Positions 2,168 to 11,662 of a stretch of DNA of 11,662 nt are shown one piece after another. The position numbers and the translations under genes are program-made. Position 1 is the stretch's first letter, and the number at the start of each line of letters is the position of its first letter. The stretch comes from Sedimenticola sp. (GTDB lineage Bacteria; Pseudomonadota; Gammaproteobacteria; Chromatiales; Chromatiaceae). Where the stretch lies: positions 1-11,662 of the forward strand of contig JAUUYI010000032.1 of NCBI GenBank assembly GCA_030590525.1. The letters run 5' to 3'. A model generated the notes under the pieces. That model was not told the DNA's origin. It ran no database searches and worked only from the letters and a program-made list of their open reading frames with translations.

Positions 2168-3001
2168 TTAGAACAGCGTCAGCAGGGCCGCATTGGCAAT
2201 GGCGAACACCAACAGGAACAGGCCCAGGAAGATGATCGAATAGCCGAACAGGAAGTAGAAGATCCGCAGGGGGACCGGCGGCGGCGCGACCAGCGCCTCG
2301 TTCAGGCGGCCTTCCTTCTCCAGGCGTGCGATCCATTCCGGATGATCGTGCTTCGCTTCCTCGATATCCAGTGTGCCGTCGAACATCGCGGCATTGAAGG
2401 GAAACGAACCGAGTCGCCAGTGCTCAATCATGAAGTGGGCGGTGAATGAGTAGCCCATTGCCAGCACCGCCTCGATGCGATGCACCCAGAGCGCCACGTT
2501 GAGCATCCACCCCGGCATATAGTCGCTGGTCAGCACCGGATTGTAGAGCATCAGCCCGGTGACGCCGATGATTATGAGGCCCCACCAGACCGCCCAGTAG
2601 TCGAACTTCTCCCACCAACTCCAGCGGTCGAAGTGCGGCAGCTTGTTGAGTCCGAAGACCCAGCCAAGATGACGGAAGAACCCCTTCACGTCGACCCATT
2701 GGAAGACCAGGGTCTCAGGACCCAGCAGGGAGCGTGGGAAGCCTTTCCAGTCGATGCGATAGATCATATAGAGAATATGCGAGGTGAACCCGGCCAGCAT
2801 CACCAGGCCGGCGGTGCGGTGGATCTCCAGGACATTGACGTAGCCGCCGAACAGGTTGGCGAGGCCACGGCCCCAGGGCGTCTCGAAGAACATCCAGGCG
2901 ATGCCGGTGACCGACAGGGTCATGAATACCAGGATCAGCCCCAGGTGCCAGAGCCGATGGACCGGGGTGAACCGTTTCAGGCGGGTGCGTTCGTCAGCCA
3001 T
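2168..3001 (-). CDS. Membrane cytochrome b (b/b6 or Ni-hydrogenase cytochrome b-like), quinone-linked subunit
   Basis: A 277-residue integral membrane protein with about five hydrophobic helices (near 20-37, 62-83, 134-153, 168-190 and 247-270). Histidines sit in or beside the helices in a pattern suited to two b hemes: H15 and H19 (VHRLWH), H61 and H75, H174, H189 and H194. This resembles the gamma/cytochrome b subunits of formate dehydrogenase and Ni-hydrogenase, which exchange electrons with the quinone pool. It is the last gene of a three-gene operon. Its ATG overlaps the stop of the triheme gene by 8 bp (2994-3001), and a strong Shine-Dalgarno (AGGGAGG, 3009-3015) lies 7 nt upstream, so translation is probably coupled. 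Its stop codon lies inside the target duplication of the adjacent MITE. Exact subfamily and heme ligands are inferred. Confidence 0.82.
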   Translation of the reverse strand: MADERTRLKRFTPVHRLWHLGLILVFMTLSVTGIAWMFFETPWGRGLANLFGGYVNVLEIHRTAGLVMLAGFTSHILYMIYRIDWKGFPRSLLGPETLVFQWVDVKGFFRHLGWVFGLNKLPHFDRWSWWEKFDYWAVWWGLIIIGVTGLMLYNPVLTSDYMPGWMLNVALWVHRIEAVLAMGYSFTAHFMIEHWRLGSFPFNAAMFDGTLDIEEAKHDHPEWIARLEKEGRLNEALVAPPPVPLRIFYFLFGYSIIFLGLFLLVFAIANAALLTLF

Positions 3002-3641
3002 GATCGGGCCTCCCTTTCAGCTTGGCGACCAACTCCCGTATCCACCACAACGCGGTATAGGGGAGGAAGAACAGAAACACCCCGCTTGCAAGGATCAACA
3101 TGAACCAGACGACGTAGTAGAATAACGGAAAGCTGCCGCGGGTCTCGGGGGCAATGGGGTTCGGTTCGTGCACCATGTAAGAGGCGAACGAGGGTGTCGC
3201 CCCTTCATGGCACTTGGCGCAGACATAGGCATGGCGGCGGATCGGGTTGAGCGACGAATAGTAATGGTAGACACCGGCGACCGGCTGGCTGCGGTGGCAC
3301 TGCACGCAGGTAATGCCCATCCGCAGGTAGTGCAGGTCCTTGGTCTGTGGAATGTGGCATTTTTTACAACGGACTTCTGGACTGTAGTCCGCGACTTCGT
3401 CGTGGGCATCCATCTTGAAACTGGAGCGCCGAATCTTCTGGCGGCTGGGCCCAAGCCCCCATAGCCCACCTTCGCCGCCCGGGAGTTGGCTGTAGAAACG
3501 GATGGCGCCAGGCAGGGTATCCTGATCCCGGTAATACCCGGTTCCCGCCATGTCTTTGGGCGTGCCCGTCGCCTGCCCGAAGGCAGGCGAGGTCAGGAGC
3601 AGCGCCACTAGTAAGCAGATAATCGTTCGGCCGATAGACAT
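2994..3641 (-). CDS. Triheme cytochrome c with signal peptide and C-terminal membrane anchor
   Basis: A 215-residue protein. Residues 1-22 form a Sec signal peptide ending near AFG. Three CxxCH heme-binding motifs follow (C92-H96, C112-H116, C141-H145). H104, H126, H137 and H158 are candidate distal ligands. A single hydrophobic helix at about 173-200 is followed by basic residues, so the heme domain should face the periplasm with the tail in the membrane. This is the reverse of the N-terminal anchor of NapC/NirT proteins. Residues 25-90 have no recognised motif. The start is supported by GGGAGGG at 3646-3652. It lies 35 bp after the octaheme gene and overlaps the cytochrome b gene. The likely role is an electron relay between the cytochrome b and the octaheme protein. 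No family name is claimed beyond multiheme cytochrome c. Confidence 0.85.
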   Translation of the reverse strand: MSIGRTIICLLVALLLTSPAFGQATGTPKDMAGTGYYRDQDTLPGAIRFYSQLPGGEGGLWGLGPSRQKIRRSSFKMDAHDEVADYSPEVRCKKCHIPQTKDLHYLRMGITCVQCHRSQPVAGVYHYYSSLNPIRRHAYVCAKCHEGATPSFASYMVHEPNPIAPETRGSFPLFYYVVWFMLILASGVFLFFLPYTALWWIRELVAKLKGRPDHG

Positions 3642-3676
3642 CGTACCCTCCCGTGGTTGGTTACGGTAAGGTCAAA

Positions 3677-4921
3677 CTACTGACTGGCCTTGATCAACTC
3701 TCCGACGAAAACACCCCTTTTGGTCAGGGCATCCCAGCGTTGCTGCAGGTCAAGGAGATCCTCGTCCTTGTGCTTGTGGCAGGTCTGGCAGGAATTGGGA
3801 ATATTGCTCTCAAGGGTATCCTTGGGCAGCAGCGCTGTGAATACGTGGCTGCGGATGTCACCGGATTCGGCGCTCTTGGCGACCCGGGGCATATGGCAGT
3901 TGGCACAGTTGCCAAAAGAGTGGACCGAATGGGCGCCGACTGCGGCGACCTGCTCGTGGCAGGAGACGCAGAGCTTGTCGCCCTCGAGCTTGGTCTTGCT
4001 GCGGAACAGCGGGTTTCCAAGTTGATGGACCACGTGGCAGGTCATGCAGGTGACGCCGCTATCGGCGTGCCTCGATTGCTTCCAGTCGATGTACTGCTGG
4101 TGGTGCCCCTTGGAAAAGCCGCTGGAATAGAGGTGCTTGTCACCGAGTTCGATGGACTTGTAGTAACTCTCGAGCGCCTTGCCCGGCCTGTAGCCGACAG
4201 GCCAGCCCGCTCCCTCGGACTTGGTCGATTTGCCACGGTTGTGGCACGAGCCGCAGATCTGGACAGCGATTCCGCCCGTCAGCTTGCTCGGGTTGACGAT
4301 GGTGCCACGTTTCTTGAAGGTCTCGGTGGCGGGCAGGGCGGCGTGGTGTGATCCGGGGCCGTGACAGGCCTCGCAACCGACACCCGGCTCAAGGAATGTC
4401 TCCTTCTCCAGATCGACGCCGGTGGCGTGGCAGCCGCCGCATTTCTTCAGCCAGGGGCGCTTGTCCCAATCATGATCGTGGTAGTTGACCCAACGGCCGG
4501 TATCGATGTTGAACTGGGTCGGCGCGATGTAGTAGGTGCCATCCTTCTGCACCAGGAAGCGCTGCTTCCACTGGCTGCCGATGGTGTATTTGATATCTTC
4601 GAGTTTGGGGTAGTAGATCTCATCGATCGGGGTCTTGAGCTTGTTCTCGATCTTCTTGAAGTCCGCTTTCATCACCGCCGGGTCCACTTCAACGACGATC
4701 ACGTCCTCGTTCTTGGATACGTCCTGCAGCATCTTGCTGTGCAGCGTCCTCTTCCAGGCGTCGTAGTGTTCCAGATGGCAGGTTTTACACACATCCGAGC
4801 CAATGTAGGTCTTGGGTTCCGACAGGAGCTTTTTTGAGTCTATTGTCTGTGCGACGACTGACTGGAGACAGAAAACTGAGAGTGAAACCAACAGAAAGAC
4901 AAGCCTGGACACGAGTGCCAT
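3677..4921 (-). CDS. Periplasmic octaheme cytochrome c, cytochrome c554-like
   Basis: A 414-residue exported protein with a signal peptide (about residues 1-25, ending VVAQ) and eight CxxCH motifs starting at C45, C161, C183, C223, C292, C318, C339 and C378. There are no other cysteines in the mature part. The first block (YIGSDVCKTCHLEHYDAW, then H61) and the CEACHGPGSHH block at 183 resemble cytochrome c554/multiheme families. Residues 65-160 lack heme motifs and may form a separate fold. All eight sites are ordinary CxxCH, with no CxxCK or widely spaced site of the kind marking NrfA, octaheme tetrathionate reductase or MccA, so a catalytic heme cannot be identified. The ATG at 4919-4921 has AGGAGT 6 nt upstream; an in-frame start 22 codons further upstream would put a hydrophilic stretch before the signal peptide and is less likely. 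It is the first gene of the cytochrome operon. Confidence 0.88.
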   Translation of the reverse strand: MALVSRLVFLLVSLSVFCLQSVVAQTIDSKKLLSEPKTYIGSDVCKTCHLEHYDAWKRTLHSKMLQDVSKNEDVIVVEVDPAVMKADFKKIENKLKTPIDEIYYPKLEDIKYTIGSQWKQRFLVQKDGTYYIAPTQFNIDTGRWVNYHDHDWDKRPWLKKCGGCHATGVDLEKETFLEPGVGCEACHGPGSHHAALPATETFKKRGTIVNPSKLTGGIAVQICGSCHNRGKSTKSEGAGWPVGYRPGKALESYYKSIELGDKHLYSSGFSKGHHQQYIDWKQSRHADSGVTCMTCHVVHQLGNPLFRSKTKLEGDKLCVSCHEQVAAVGAHSVHSFGNCANCHMPRVAKSAESGDIRSHVFTALLPKDTLESNIPNSCQTCHKHKDEDLLDLQQRWDALTKRGVFVGELIKASQ

Positions 4922-5096
4922 CGTTTTACTCCTCACTATCGTTATTGTTATATCTGGTTGAAGAGGCAGGAGATACTGCACGGCCAACCACTGATACTAC
5001 CGAGCAAAACGTCAACTCACCCGACGAACATTAGACCCATGTCATTATCTGTTACAAGGGATTTTTTGACCCTGACCGGACCTACCCTGTGTTTTT

Positions 5097-5110
5097 TTGA
5101 TCTGCATCAA
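5097..5110. promoter_or_regulatory. FNR/ANR-type operator upstream of cytochrome operon
   Basis: TTGATCTGCATCAA is an exact match to the FNR-family consensus TTGAT-N4-ATCAA and is a perfect half-site palindrome. It lies about 176 bp upstream of the octaheme start codon, in the 275-bp gap after the HDOD gene. On the minus strand a possible -10 (GATAAT, + coordinates 5044-5049) would put the operator near -66, in the range for upstream (class I) activation, though no good -35 is seen. FNR, ANR and DNR-type regulators cannot be told apart from the site. Low-oxygen or nitrogen-oxide control of the cytochrome operon is inferred. Confidence 0.75.
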
Positions 5111-6090: not shown

Positions 6091-6220
6091 GGTTTGGTCT
6101 TTTCTGGGTGCCCTGTCAGGCTCATACTGGGTTTATCGGTCGACTGTCAGTATTCTTTACAATGGTCGCAAGCGGGGGCGGGGGCCCTTCTCCTGTTTCT
6201 TCTATCTTGAGTCATATCGT

Positions 6221-6280
6221 TACCCATATCTCGGTAAGAAAAAACGTTCTCACACGGAGTCGAGGAGACACGGGGAAGAA
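6221..6280. repeat. Half copy of the TTTACCC/CACGGAG repeat, in the HDOD-EamA gap
   Basis: TACCCATATCTCGGTAAGAA, followed within 20 bases by CTCACACGGAG and GGAGACACGG, matches one arm of the larger element at 7331-7588. The partner arm is missing, so this is a solo or decayed half. The gap around it (6091-6397, between divergent genes) also has a GCTGAA/TTCAGC hairpin (6288-6308) and a G-rich tract (6173-6186). I could not assign a convincing promoter for either flanking gene. Confidence 0.6.
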
Positions 6281-6397: not shown

Positions 6398-7312
6398 ATG
6401 CCAGAGACCCGAAATCCACCACTCAACCAACCTGCCGCCATCCTGGGCCTTGCTGCCGGCGCCGTGCTGATCAGTTTCTCTTCTGTCTTCGTCAAGCTGT
6501 CCGGGGTCGGTCCGGCCAGTGCCGGTTTCTATCGTATGCTGTTCGGTGCCTTGGCTCTGACGGCAGCCGCCCTGCTGTTGCGGGAGCGCCTCCGACTGGA
6601 ATACCGGACCCTGCTCTGGGCCACGGCGGCCGGGCTGATGTTTGCGGCCGACCTCAGCGTATGGCACCGGAGTATCGAGGGTGTCGGCCCGGGATTGGCC
6701 ACGGTGCTGGGAAACTTCCAGGTATTCGTAATGATCGCCGCCGGCGCCCTGTTCCTGGGGGAGCGGGTAACCTGGCGCACGCTGAGCGCGGTACTTCTGG
6801 CCATCCTCGGGTTGCTGCTGCTGGTAGGCCCGGGCTGGGGAAACCTGTCAGGGGATTGGCGCAATGGCGTGCTCCTGGGGCTGACGACTGCCTTCTTCTA
6901 TGCCGCTTACATGATGATTCTTCGGCGTATGCAAAACGAACACCACAATCGCAGCCCGATCTGGAGCATGACGGTAATGGCCGTCGTCTGCAGCCTGCTG
7001 ATGGGAATGGAGATCCCCTTATCCAAGGAGAGTTTTATCATTCCTGACCGGGCCGCTTTCCTCTACCTGCTGGCCTATGGGGTTCTCTGTCAGGCACTGG
7101 GCTGGTACCTCATCTCCCGCAATATCCCCCGGGCGACCCTCACCATCACTGGCATCACCATCCTGTTGCAACCGGCGCTCTCTTTCGGCTGGGACATCCT
7201 CCTGTTCTCCCGGCCAACCACGTTTCTGGATCTGACCGGGGCGTTGCTCACGCTGACTGCGATCTACATCGGGGTGACACGACAAAAAGCAGGACCGAGG
7301 ACCGAGGACTGA
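6398..7312 (+). CDS. EamA/DMT-family inner-membrane transporter
   Basis: A 304-residue, very hydrophobic protein with about ten membrane helices arranged as two EamA halves (roughly 13-145 and 156-293). Typical landmarks are the early YRMLFGAL (45-52), the LGNFQVF stretch closing the first half, the GERVTWR loop (121-127), and ALGWYLISRNIPRAT before the ninth helix. Members of the drug/metabolite transporter superfamily export amino acids, nucleotides or other small metabolites; the substrate cannot be read here. The ATG at 6398 is chosen because the protein then starts just before helix 1. A GTG at 6323 is in frame and would add 25 hydrophilic residues; neither start has a strong ribosome-binding site. 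The final residues (AGPRTED) are encoded by a tandem DNA repeat, so the C-terminus is probably of secondary origin. Confidence 0.88.
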   Translation: MPETRNPPLNQPAAILGLAAGAVLISFSSVFVKLSGVGPASAGFYRMLFGALALTAAALLLRERLRLEYRTLLWATAAGLMFAADLSVWHRSIEGVGPGLATVLGNFQVFVMIAAGALFLGERVTWRTLSAVLLAILGLLLLVGPGWGNLSGDWRNGVLLGLTTAFFYAAYMMILRRMQNEHHNRSPIWSMTVMAVVCSLLMGMEIPLSKESFIIPDRAAFLYLLAYGVLCQALGWYLISRNIPRATLTITGITILLQPALSFGWDILLFSRPTTFLDLTGALLTLTAIYIGVTRQKAGPRTED

Positions 7313-7318: not shown

Positions 7319-7330
7319 AAAGGCTAGGAC

Positions 7331-7588
7331 TGCCCTTTACCCATATCTGTTAAAACTCACACGGAGACACGGAGGCACGGAGAAAACAAATAAAAACAAA
7401 TAGTTGCACAACGACTCAAGATGCTGATCCAATGTTTGATGCGGTTCCCACGCGGTTTGGGCGCCAGCCGACCATGAACAGGCTAAGTCGCATCTACCGA
7501 AAGCCTTTGTTTTTATCTTTATTTTCCCCTTCGTGTCTCCGTGCCTCCGTGTGAGGCACTTTTTTTACCGAGATGTGGGTAAAGAGCA
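7331..7588. mobile_element. MITE-like element of about 258 bp with TTTACCC ends
   Basis: The ends (7331-7348 and 7571-7588) are inverted repeats matching at 16 of 18 positions. Inside each end lies an arm rich in the 8-mer CACGGAGR: three tandem units on the left near 7360-7383, and the complementary 7532-7554 on the right, inverted with 2 differences over 23 nt. The central 110 bp shows no open frame or other structure. GGCTAGGAC (7322-7330) and GGCTAAGAG (7590-7598) flank the element and agree at 7 of 9 positions, possibly a decayed target duplication. A half copy sits at 6221-6280. No transposase is present. Confidence 0.7.
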
Positions 7589-7595
7589 GGGCTAA

Positions 7596-10356: not shown

Positions 10357-11565
10357 TCACCCCTCGTCCAGTTGCTGCAGGATGTTGCGGGCCACCGCAA
10401 TCTGGTCGTCGTTACCCTGGGCGAGCACCTCATACAGCAGACCACGTGCCCCGGTCCGATCCTCCCGGTCCCGCAGTACCTGAACCTGCCGCAGTTTCTC
10501 TTCAACCGGGTCGATCCCCTCCCCGCTCTCATCCCTGACCTCTGCCTCGTCCTCGTCCGACTCGATCATATCGAGCTCGGCATCGAGTTCCTCCTCGGTG
10601 AGGGGCACGAAACGGTCGGGATCAAGAGGCTGATCGGCATCCGGCGACGGGTCGCCATCGAAGGCCGGTATCACGCCGGACTCCGGGTGCCAACCGTCGC
10701 TGCCGGTTACCGTCGCTGCCGCAGCAGCGGGCGAGGGCTCTACCGGGCCCGGATTGGGGGAAGAACCCCGGGCGCCGTTATCCGTCTCGGATGCCGCCCC
10801 ATCCGCTGCCCTGGCCTTGTCTCGCCGGCGAATGAAACCTCGGGAAAACAACAGCCCCGCCTCGAACAGAATCCACATCGGCAGCGCCAGCAGGGTCTGA
10901 GAGATGACATCCGGCGGCGTCAGCAGCATGCCAAGCAGGAACACGCCGACGATGATATAGGGCCGCTTTTCCGCCAGTTTGTCCGGTGTCGTCACCCCCA
11001 TCCAGACCAGGATGATAGTGGCAATGGGGATCTCGAAGGCCATGCCGAAGGCGAAAAAGAGGGTCAGGATAAAATCCAGGTACTTGGAGATATCGGTGGC
11101 GACCGTTACCCCTTCCGGTGCGGCGCTGGTCAGGAAAGCGAATACCAGCGGGAACACCACATAGTAGGCAAACACCATCCCCAGGTAGAAGAGCAGGGTG
11201 CTGGAGGCCACCAGGGGGGCGACCAGGCGTTTCTCGTGTTTATACAGCCCGGGAGCAACAAAGGCCCACAACTGATACAGGATGAACGGCATGGAGAGAA
11301 AGAGCGCGGCGACCAGGCTCAATTTGAACGGGGTCAGGAAAGGGGAGGCCACCTCGGTGGCGATCATGCTCGTCCCCTCCGGCAGGTGCATCATCAGGGG
11401 GGTGGCCACCCAGACATAGATGTCGTTGGCAAAGGGGAACAGGATGACGAAGAATATCGCCACCACCACCACCGCACGCAACAGCCGGTCGCGAAGTTCC
11501 AGCAGGTGGGAGACGAAGGGTTGTTCCTTGAGTGAAAAGTCAGCCTGTTCGTTTTTCGTTGTCAT
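10357..11565 (-). CDS. tatC: TatC, twin-arginine translocase core subunit, with a long C-terminal extension
   Basis: A 402-residue protein. Residues 11-245 are a full TatC with six membrane helices. Key positions are conserved: [10 protein letters not shown] at the cytoplasmic N-terminus (E23 equivalent to E. coli E15), ALYKHE-like [11 protein letters not shown] (E111 equivalent to E103) and FGMAFEIPI (E178 equivalent to E170). TatC binds the twin-arginine signal and organises TatB and TatA for export of folded proteins, including many redox enzymes. TatC is normally about 250-260 residues; here a tail of about 155 residues follows. Residues 246-345 are Pro/Ala/Gly/Asp-rich and probably disordered, and residues 352-399 ([10 protein letters not shown], then [14 protein letters not shown]) resemble the FimV C-terminal TPR-like domain. 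The tail should be cytoplasmic. The ATG at 11565 gives the normal family N-terminus; an in-frame GTG at 11646 would add 27 residues. The frame is open throughout with no sign of frameshift. Confidence 0.95.
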
Positions 11566-11662
11566 GGGGCTGGTTGGTGGAAACGTCTGCGGGATCACCG
11601 AAACGGGCGTAAGAGTCGTCCTCGGAGCCGTGCTCTTTTTCAGCACTGCGCCTGGCGCTCCC
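11540..11662 (-). CDS. tatB: Partial CDS, probable C-terminal tail of TatB
   Basis: In the frame one step from tatC, the minus strand is open from the window edge to a TGA at 11540-11542, giving 40 residues ([20 protein letters not shown], then a hydrophilic tail ending NEKRTG). It has no domain of its own, but its position immediately before tatC and its charged low-complexity character fit the variable TatB tail. It overlaps the start of tatC by 26 nt, which would imply translational coupling in a tatABC operon. The TatB transmembrane part and tatA lie outside the window. The call rests mainly on gene order. Confidence 0.55.

Follow-up and report, generated by a model that had tools for sequence, protein, structure and literature searches.

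The stretch of DNA analysed here, referred to as the window, comprises 11,662 nucleotides of a Sedimenticola sp. draft genome (contig JAUUYI010000032.1). On its minus strand lie three closely spaced genes, named OCT, TRI and CYB in 5' to 3' order, and the features considered in this work are the following:

2168..3001, minus strand: CYB, a diheme-type cytochrome b, formate dehydrogenase gamma-like, predicted quinone-reacting subunit (PF01292, conserved His)
2994..3641, minus strand: TRI, a cytochrome c with three hemes, a signal peptide and a C-terminal membrane anchor, predicted electron bridge (three CXXCH, hydrophobic residues 173-191)
3677..4921, minus strand: OCT, an exported cytochrome c with eight hemes, of the OcwA/MccA/c554 kind and predicted to be the catalytic subunit
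4100..4105, minus strand: OCT His273-His274, aligned with OcwA His281-His282 over heme 2
4427..4441, minus strand: OCT heme-2 site CGGCH, residues 161-165, equivalent to OcwA heme 2, with a predicted open sixth position (6i5b alignment, description of OcwA, sequence)
5097..5110, no strand: TTGATCTGCATCAA, a perfect palindrome of the FNR type, located some 180 bp 5' of OCT and a candidate site of anaerobic control

The initial annotation had placed three genes here, and the open reading frames bear this out. OCT has 414 aa from the ATG at 4921, with exactly eight CXXCH motifs (starting at residues 45, 161, 183, 223, 292, 318, 339 and 378) and, by hydropathy, a single hydrophobic segment at the N-terminus, in agreement with the exported eight-heme protein proposed there. 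TRI (215 aa) presents three CXXCH, at 92, 112 and 141, and two hydrophobic segments, one N-terminal and the other at 173-191, downstream of the hemes, as expected of the C-terminal anchor claimed for this three-heme protein. The TRI protein of the window matched the Pfam cytochrome c3/c7 families weakly, below the cut-off. The gap between OCT and TRI is 35 bp, and the 8-bp overlap between TRI and CYB was found at 2994-3001.

CYB (277 aa, without CXXCH) belongs to the PF01292 family (36.1 bits, gathering cut-off 30.1), so its description as a cytochrome b stands. The five helices also attributed to it were not reproduced as such, since three strong hydropathy segments appeared at the threshold used and five are plausible. 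Among 71 loci, His19, His61, His174 and His189 are kept in all and His75 in 69, a set that is enough for the two b hemes considered probable from the beginning. CYB missed the cut-off of TIGR01583, the formate dehydrogenase gamma model (30.7 vs 115.85 bits), and no formate dehydrogenase gene is present among the window proteins annotated with Pfam and NCBIfam. Members of the formate dehydrogenase gamma family are quinone-reacting subunits through which electrons flow to quinone. Past the signal region, all cysteines of OCT and TRI fall within CXXCH motifs, which leaves no room for an iron-sulfur centre. The earlier statement that the module lacks the Hmc, Tmc, Qrc, Nrf or Nap subunits is supported.

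The other genes of the window encode EttA (plus strand), an HDOD protein, an EamA transporter, a pentapeptide protein, a DUF255 thioredoxin-domain protein and TatC, and none of them looks functionally tied to the module. A single OCT was found in the source genome, a draft that is 70% complete, and an Rfam scan of the window gave no matches. On either side of ettA, at 1-221 and 1993-2168, lies a copy of a small element bounded by terminal inverted repeats, which are perfect over 18 bp in the first copy and match at 18/20 in the second; the second copy extends to the CYB stop codon. The draft genome gave 54 matching pieces, including short and overlapping ones, with 40 of 75 candidates scored, and the element resembles a MITE family. 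The nested palindromic repeat region at 7325-7594 separates the EamA gene from the pentapeptide gene and is likely a further small mobile element; the stretch at 6217-6277 is partly similar to it. In addition, TatC (10357-11646) carries a long acidic, Pro/Ala-rich C-terminal extension ending in a stretch similar to the FimV C-terminus (TIGR03504, 27.3 bits, below the cut-off of 30.65).

Regarding the region upstream of OCT, TTGATCTGCATCAA is the only FNR-type match in the window at up to one mismatch, and 36 of 200 shuffles also held one. Perfect boxes precede OCT in 4 of 68 loci, the window and three others, against 0.05 expected from shuffles; with one mismatch allowed the number is still four, against 1.5 expected. 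The box is therefore absent in 64 of the 68 loci, which we count against the interpretation preferred below. Sigma-54 promoters were found upstream of OCT in 2 of 68 loci, against 1.6 expected. In the OCT leader (4908-5020), GTTTTGCTC pairs with the ribosome-binding site GGAGTAAAAC in a fold that encloses an inner hairpin. This fold was observed in the window, L004 and L008, and partially in L006, and the motif is absent from L002 and L005; its z-scores are weak (-0.8 to -1.5), and translational control is possible.

Conservation and distribution of the cassette

The search for OCT relatives gave 2308 sequences at E <= 1e-3 among 6205 candidates, and the best 120 of these 2308 share at least 61% identity. 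In a scan of one genome per species, 93 of the 175 pattern-matching stretches encode an OCT relative, and the best 80 of the 93 were kept. A contig end precedes CYB in five of them (L003, L073, L078, L079 and L081), leaving 75 testable loci. TRI and CYB were located directly 3' of OCT, on the same strand, in 73 of these 75, counting L037, whose CYB is cut by a contig end. The two exceptions, L066 and L069, encode OCT without TRI-CYB and are counted against our best explanation. The order OCT-TRI-CYB is thus far beyond chance, and the strong co-occurrence in related genomes supports the proposal of the initial annotation that the genes form one co-inherited module. Its function is unassigned and, as also proposed there, it probably links quinone and periplasm. 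The Pfam and genome-neighbourhood searches suggested at that time returned PF01292 for CYB, PF02335 for OCT and this conserved cassette.

The hosts, the majority of them metagenome bins, are mainly Desulfobacterota (Desulfospira, Desulfoluna, Pseudodesulfovibrio, Desulfarculus and many uncultured members) and gammaproteobacteria (Sedimenticola, Thiodiazotropha, a Chromatiales bin and others), with a few alphaproteobacteria (Aliiruegeria and a Rhodospirillales bin). A CYB search in the family of Pseudodesulfovibrio matched 13 of 99 genomes, nine of them strongly, and in all nine TRI and OCT adjoin the match. Among the 174 genomes of the class of Desulfospira, OCT exceeds 600 bits in 18; one more has a cut copy, and another a truncated gene followed by TRI and CYB. 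OCT is present in 5 of 96 genomes of the window's own family, including that of the window, and in 1 of 345 of the family of Aliiruegeria.

Some loci depart from the simple arrangement. The TRI and CYB domains share one open frame in L118 and also in L059, where the frame belongs to an extra copy that OCT does not directly precede. In L049, L063 and L113 the cassette, or most of it, is present twice. The distance matrices of the subunits correlate with r between 0.56 and 0.78 (permuted maxima 0.11-0.16), for which shared species history alone would suffice. In the 2.2 Mb genome that contains L113 (G268, contig 2), three OCT-like genes are found consecutively; those at 6602 and 9805 adjoin TRI and CYB, and the third scores 321 bits. 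In the family of Pseudodesulfovibrio, four loci (L142, L143, L145 and L146) encode single frames of about 700 aa with seven CXXCH and a cytochrome b stretch, in which PF01292 was confirmed for L142 only; these frames are a one-chain analogue of the module.

Beyond the three module genes, the largest neighbour cluster, represented by a hybrid sensor kinase, occurs in only 14 loci. Clusters present in at least four loci have as representatives this kinase, a sigma-54 activator, an adenylate cyclase, an ABC ATPase, an AMP-binding enzyme and a response regulator, and these annotated representatives gave no hint of a substrate. The sigma-54 activator and the response regulator are located upstream of the module in some Desulfobacterota loci. 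Clusters c7-c9 were regarded as probable artefacts of the ORF caller because they have no Pfam match and run antisense to the module.

The heme-2 site of OCT

The best match of OCT, both by sequence and by predicted fold, is OcwA, the nonaheme cytochrome of Thermincola potens (PDB 6i5b), and the heme domain of OCT classifies as OcwA-like. The two proteins align heme for heme except for OcwA heme 5, the second open site of OcwA, which is missing from the shorter OCT with its eight CXXCH. According to the available text of PMC6703420, hemes 2 and 5 of OcwA have His as proximal ligand and lie beneath His-His pairs, the distal side of heme 2 being open under its pair. This pair is common to OcwA and OCT. 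It should be noted that the residue numbering between OCT and 6i5b is an offset derived from alignments, and that the structure model of OCT contains no hemes, so that the open heme-2 site is inferred from the alignment; an earlier model from a 23-row alignment (pLDDT 46.8) was set aside.

His273-His274 is invariant in 96 of 96 rows of the OCT clade, and SN, RH or NR occupies its place in 7 of 8 distant rows. The residues W118, Q120, W152, W157, W240, K271, Q275, Q276 and W280 are also invariant in the 96 rows, 95 of which hold eight CXXCH and one seven. Outside the CXXCH motifs, His 52, 61, 193, 299, 331, 334 and 359 are kept in 71 of 71 loci, His285 in 70 and His384 in 69; besides the pair, these nine are enough as second ligands for the other hemes of OCT. 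OCT is also the most conserved subunit, with a mean pairwise identity over 71 loci of 64% (46% for TRI and 49% for CYB), and of 59% between the gamma/alpha and Desulfobacterota groups (37% and 45%, respectively), which fits a catalytic role better than that of a wire.

A lipoprotein-like signal matched the pattern in 33 of 49 Desulfobacterota rows of OCT and was recognized by eye in nine more, the remaining seven being cut too short; it appears in 1 of the 47 other rows (L021), with L066 and L069, which have no such signal, counted apart. A sister octaheme family, 40% identical to OCT, was observed in L097, L120 and L121. In its members a membrane segment lies at the N-terminus and SN replaces His-His, and TRI and CYB are absent within about 1.4 kb on each side; L097 is located a few kb from the OCT-TRI copy L100, on the same contig.

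Proposed electron flow and candidate substrates

The three genes probably build a membrane-anchored electron-transfer enzyme in which OCT resembles the known heme reductases more than a simple wire. We consider it fairly likely that OCT-TRI-CYB is a quinone-coupled periplasmic oxidoreductase, most likely one that reduces a small nitrogen or sulfur compound under anaerobic conditions. The three proteins would form an inner-membrane complex that links a redox reaction in the periplasm with the quinone pool. CYB, with two b hemes, would exchange electrons with quinone; TRI, placed next to CYB through its C-terminal helix, as the shared TRI-CYB frames suggest, would pass electrons between CYB and OCT; and the heme chain of OCT would lead to heme 2, where a small inorganic substrate may react at the open sixth position under His273-His274. 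The most likely direction would be the anaerobic, quinol-dependent reduction of a nitrogen oxide (nitrite, hydroxylamine) or of a sulfur compound. A quinol-fed reductase is preferred on two grounds: the relatives NrfA, MccA and OcwA all act as reductases, and the window operon carries a perfect FNR-type box, the latter being weak evidence for this direction.

OCT could instead be a conduit that hands electrons, received from quinol by way of CYB and TRI, on to further cytochromes of the periplasm or the outer membrane, with a non-catalytic heme 2. The initial annotation had leaned towards a conduit or storage protein on the basis of the standard heme motifs. That argument is not supported, since the open-site hemes of OcwA are also His-ligated, and OCT keeps the His-His pair and is the most conserved subunit. 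Still, a CXXCH at every heme site and the lipoprotein-like signal of Desulfobacterota agree with a conduit, and the available text of the literature describes OcwA and OmhA, the nearest relatives, as cytochromes that transfer electrons at the cell surface; that OcwA itself hands electrons to minerals and electrodes makes such a role conceivable. However, the invariant pair over heme 2 and the very high conservation of OCT speak against it, as does the lack of porins and outer-membrane cytochromes among the annotated representatives of clusters in at least four loci, and we judge it unlikely.

Electrons could also run in the opposite sense, with OCT oxidising a periplasmic donor, or taking electrons from small periplasmic cytochromes, and delivering them through TRI and CYB to quinone in an Ohc-like manner. 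This would suit a CYB of the formate dehydrogenase gamma kind, a family known to send electrons to quinone. The available text of the sources describes Ohc as running from periplasm to quinone (PMC4287179) and OcwA as oxidising hydroxylamine besides reducing it (PMC6703420). Nevertheless, the solved relatives with tested activity (OcwA, MccA and NrfA) are reductases and the window operon has its FNR-type box, so that we regard reverse flow as rather improbable.

Returning to the preferred quinol-fed reductase, nitrogen oxides and sulfur compounds are equal candidates as substrate, given the activities of OcwA, the copper cysteines of MccA without counterpart in OCT, a weak link with dsrA and a neutral result for NrfA. 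As described in the available text of PMC6703420, OcwA reduces nitrite slowly (kcat 1 per minute), both reduces and oxidises hydroxylamine, and does not reduce sulfite. Most hosts belong, by name, to sulfur-cycling groups. We surveyed dsrA in 18 module genome entries, which did not include the non-Desulfobacterota loci L003, L004, L006, L007 and L008. From outside the Desulfobacterota there were 16 entries, two of them the same assembly with identical places, corresponding to 15 distinct genomes. Of these 15, 10 contain a clear dsrA, which in one case is divided into two parts and scores slightly below the cut-off, two contain a fragment and three have none. Since dsrA is present in 81 of 96 genomes of the window's own family, and in the family of Aliiruegeria (22 of 345) there is a single module carrier, which has dsrA, the link between the module and the Dsr pathway is suggestive at most.

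NrfA was found in 2 of 20 module genomes of the class of Desulfospira, against 30 of 174 overall. The 20 carriers comprise the 18 with OCT above 600 bits, the one with a cut copy and the one with a truncated gene; G096 (the centre) was chosen as a carrier. Carriers show no clear enrichment or depletion of NrfA and hence no inverse link between NrfA and OCT, which counts against our best explanation, and the idea of OCT as an NrfA replacement was rejected.

Comparison with known systems

NrfA has five hemes and, in most members, a catalytic CXXCK. OCT differs from NrfA, cytochrome c554 and octaheme nitrite reductase in heme number and in the absence of CXXCK, and its model does not contain their long C-terminal helix bundle. 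It matches PF02335, the NrfA family, with 47.8 bits (gathering cut-off 24.1; best stretch, residues 180-325), and falls far under the cut-offs of the NCBIfam NrfA models (40.9 vs 595 and 33.4 vs 692.5). With eight CXXCH, no CXXCK and these scores, OCT was rejected as a standard NrfA.

MccA carries copper-binding cysteines beside heme 2 and has iron-sulfur and NrfD-like proteins as partner subunits. The heme-2 motif of OCT, unlike that of MccA, is an ordinary CGGCH, and beyond residue 45 there are no cysteines outside CXXCH in 88 of 96 rows of OCT and one or two in the other eight; without a conserved cysteine of this kind, a copper site as in MccA is not expected. OCT was therefore rejected as a standard MccA, the copper cysteines having no counterpart. 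The overall overlay with the MccA/SirA octaheme sulfite reductase (PDB 4rkm) is poor (TM 0.36-0.39), which we also count against our best explanation.

By composition, and judging from the available text of the sources, the nearest named complex is Ohc of sulfate reducers, which consists of the octaheme OhcA, the iron-sulfur protein OhcB and the cytochrome b OhcC (PMC4641369) and whose electron flow was proposed to run from periplasm to quinone (PMC4287179). Both systems join periplasm and quinone through an octaheme cytochrome and a cytochrome b; the second subunit is the iron-sulfur OhcB in one and the triheme TRI in the other, a distinction based on subunit composition. Identity with a standard Ohc was rejected, since no iron-sulfur gene is present among the annotated recurrent neighbours of the module and the cysteines of mature TRI all bind heme.

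In the titles and abstract openings searched, which a mention in full text could escape, we found no description of an OCT-TRI-CYB complex. Within this scope, neither finding named as a refutation of the initial annotation, a characterised complex of this make-up or a lack of co-occurrence, was made. The available text of the literature lists related octahemes as of "unassigned function". In databases the proteins have so far been named "predicted CXXCH cytochrome family protein", "formate-dependent nitrite reductase cytochrome c552 subunit" and "formate dehydrogenase subunit gamma". The fold and the heme plan are already known from OcwA and MccA. That the module is an undescribed respiratory enzyme, an octaheme reductase coupled to quinone in which a single open heme lies under a His-His pair, and that it is spread across sulfate reducers and sulfur oxidisers and acts on a substrate new to the superfamily in these organisms, seems to us a tentative proposal with slightly less than an even chance. 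If our interpretation is right, such generic names are all that a respiratory complex widespread in sulfur-cycling bacteria has received until now, and its invariant His-His pair and constant three-gene arrangement open the function to direct tests in cultured hosts. OcwA is described in the available text of PMC6703420 as a terminal reductase on the Gram-positive cell surface that passes electrons to minerals and electrodes, and that text mentions no TRI-CYB partners; the module would put a site of the OcwA type at the inner membrane, in connection with quinone.
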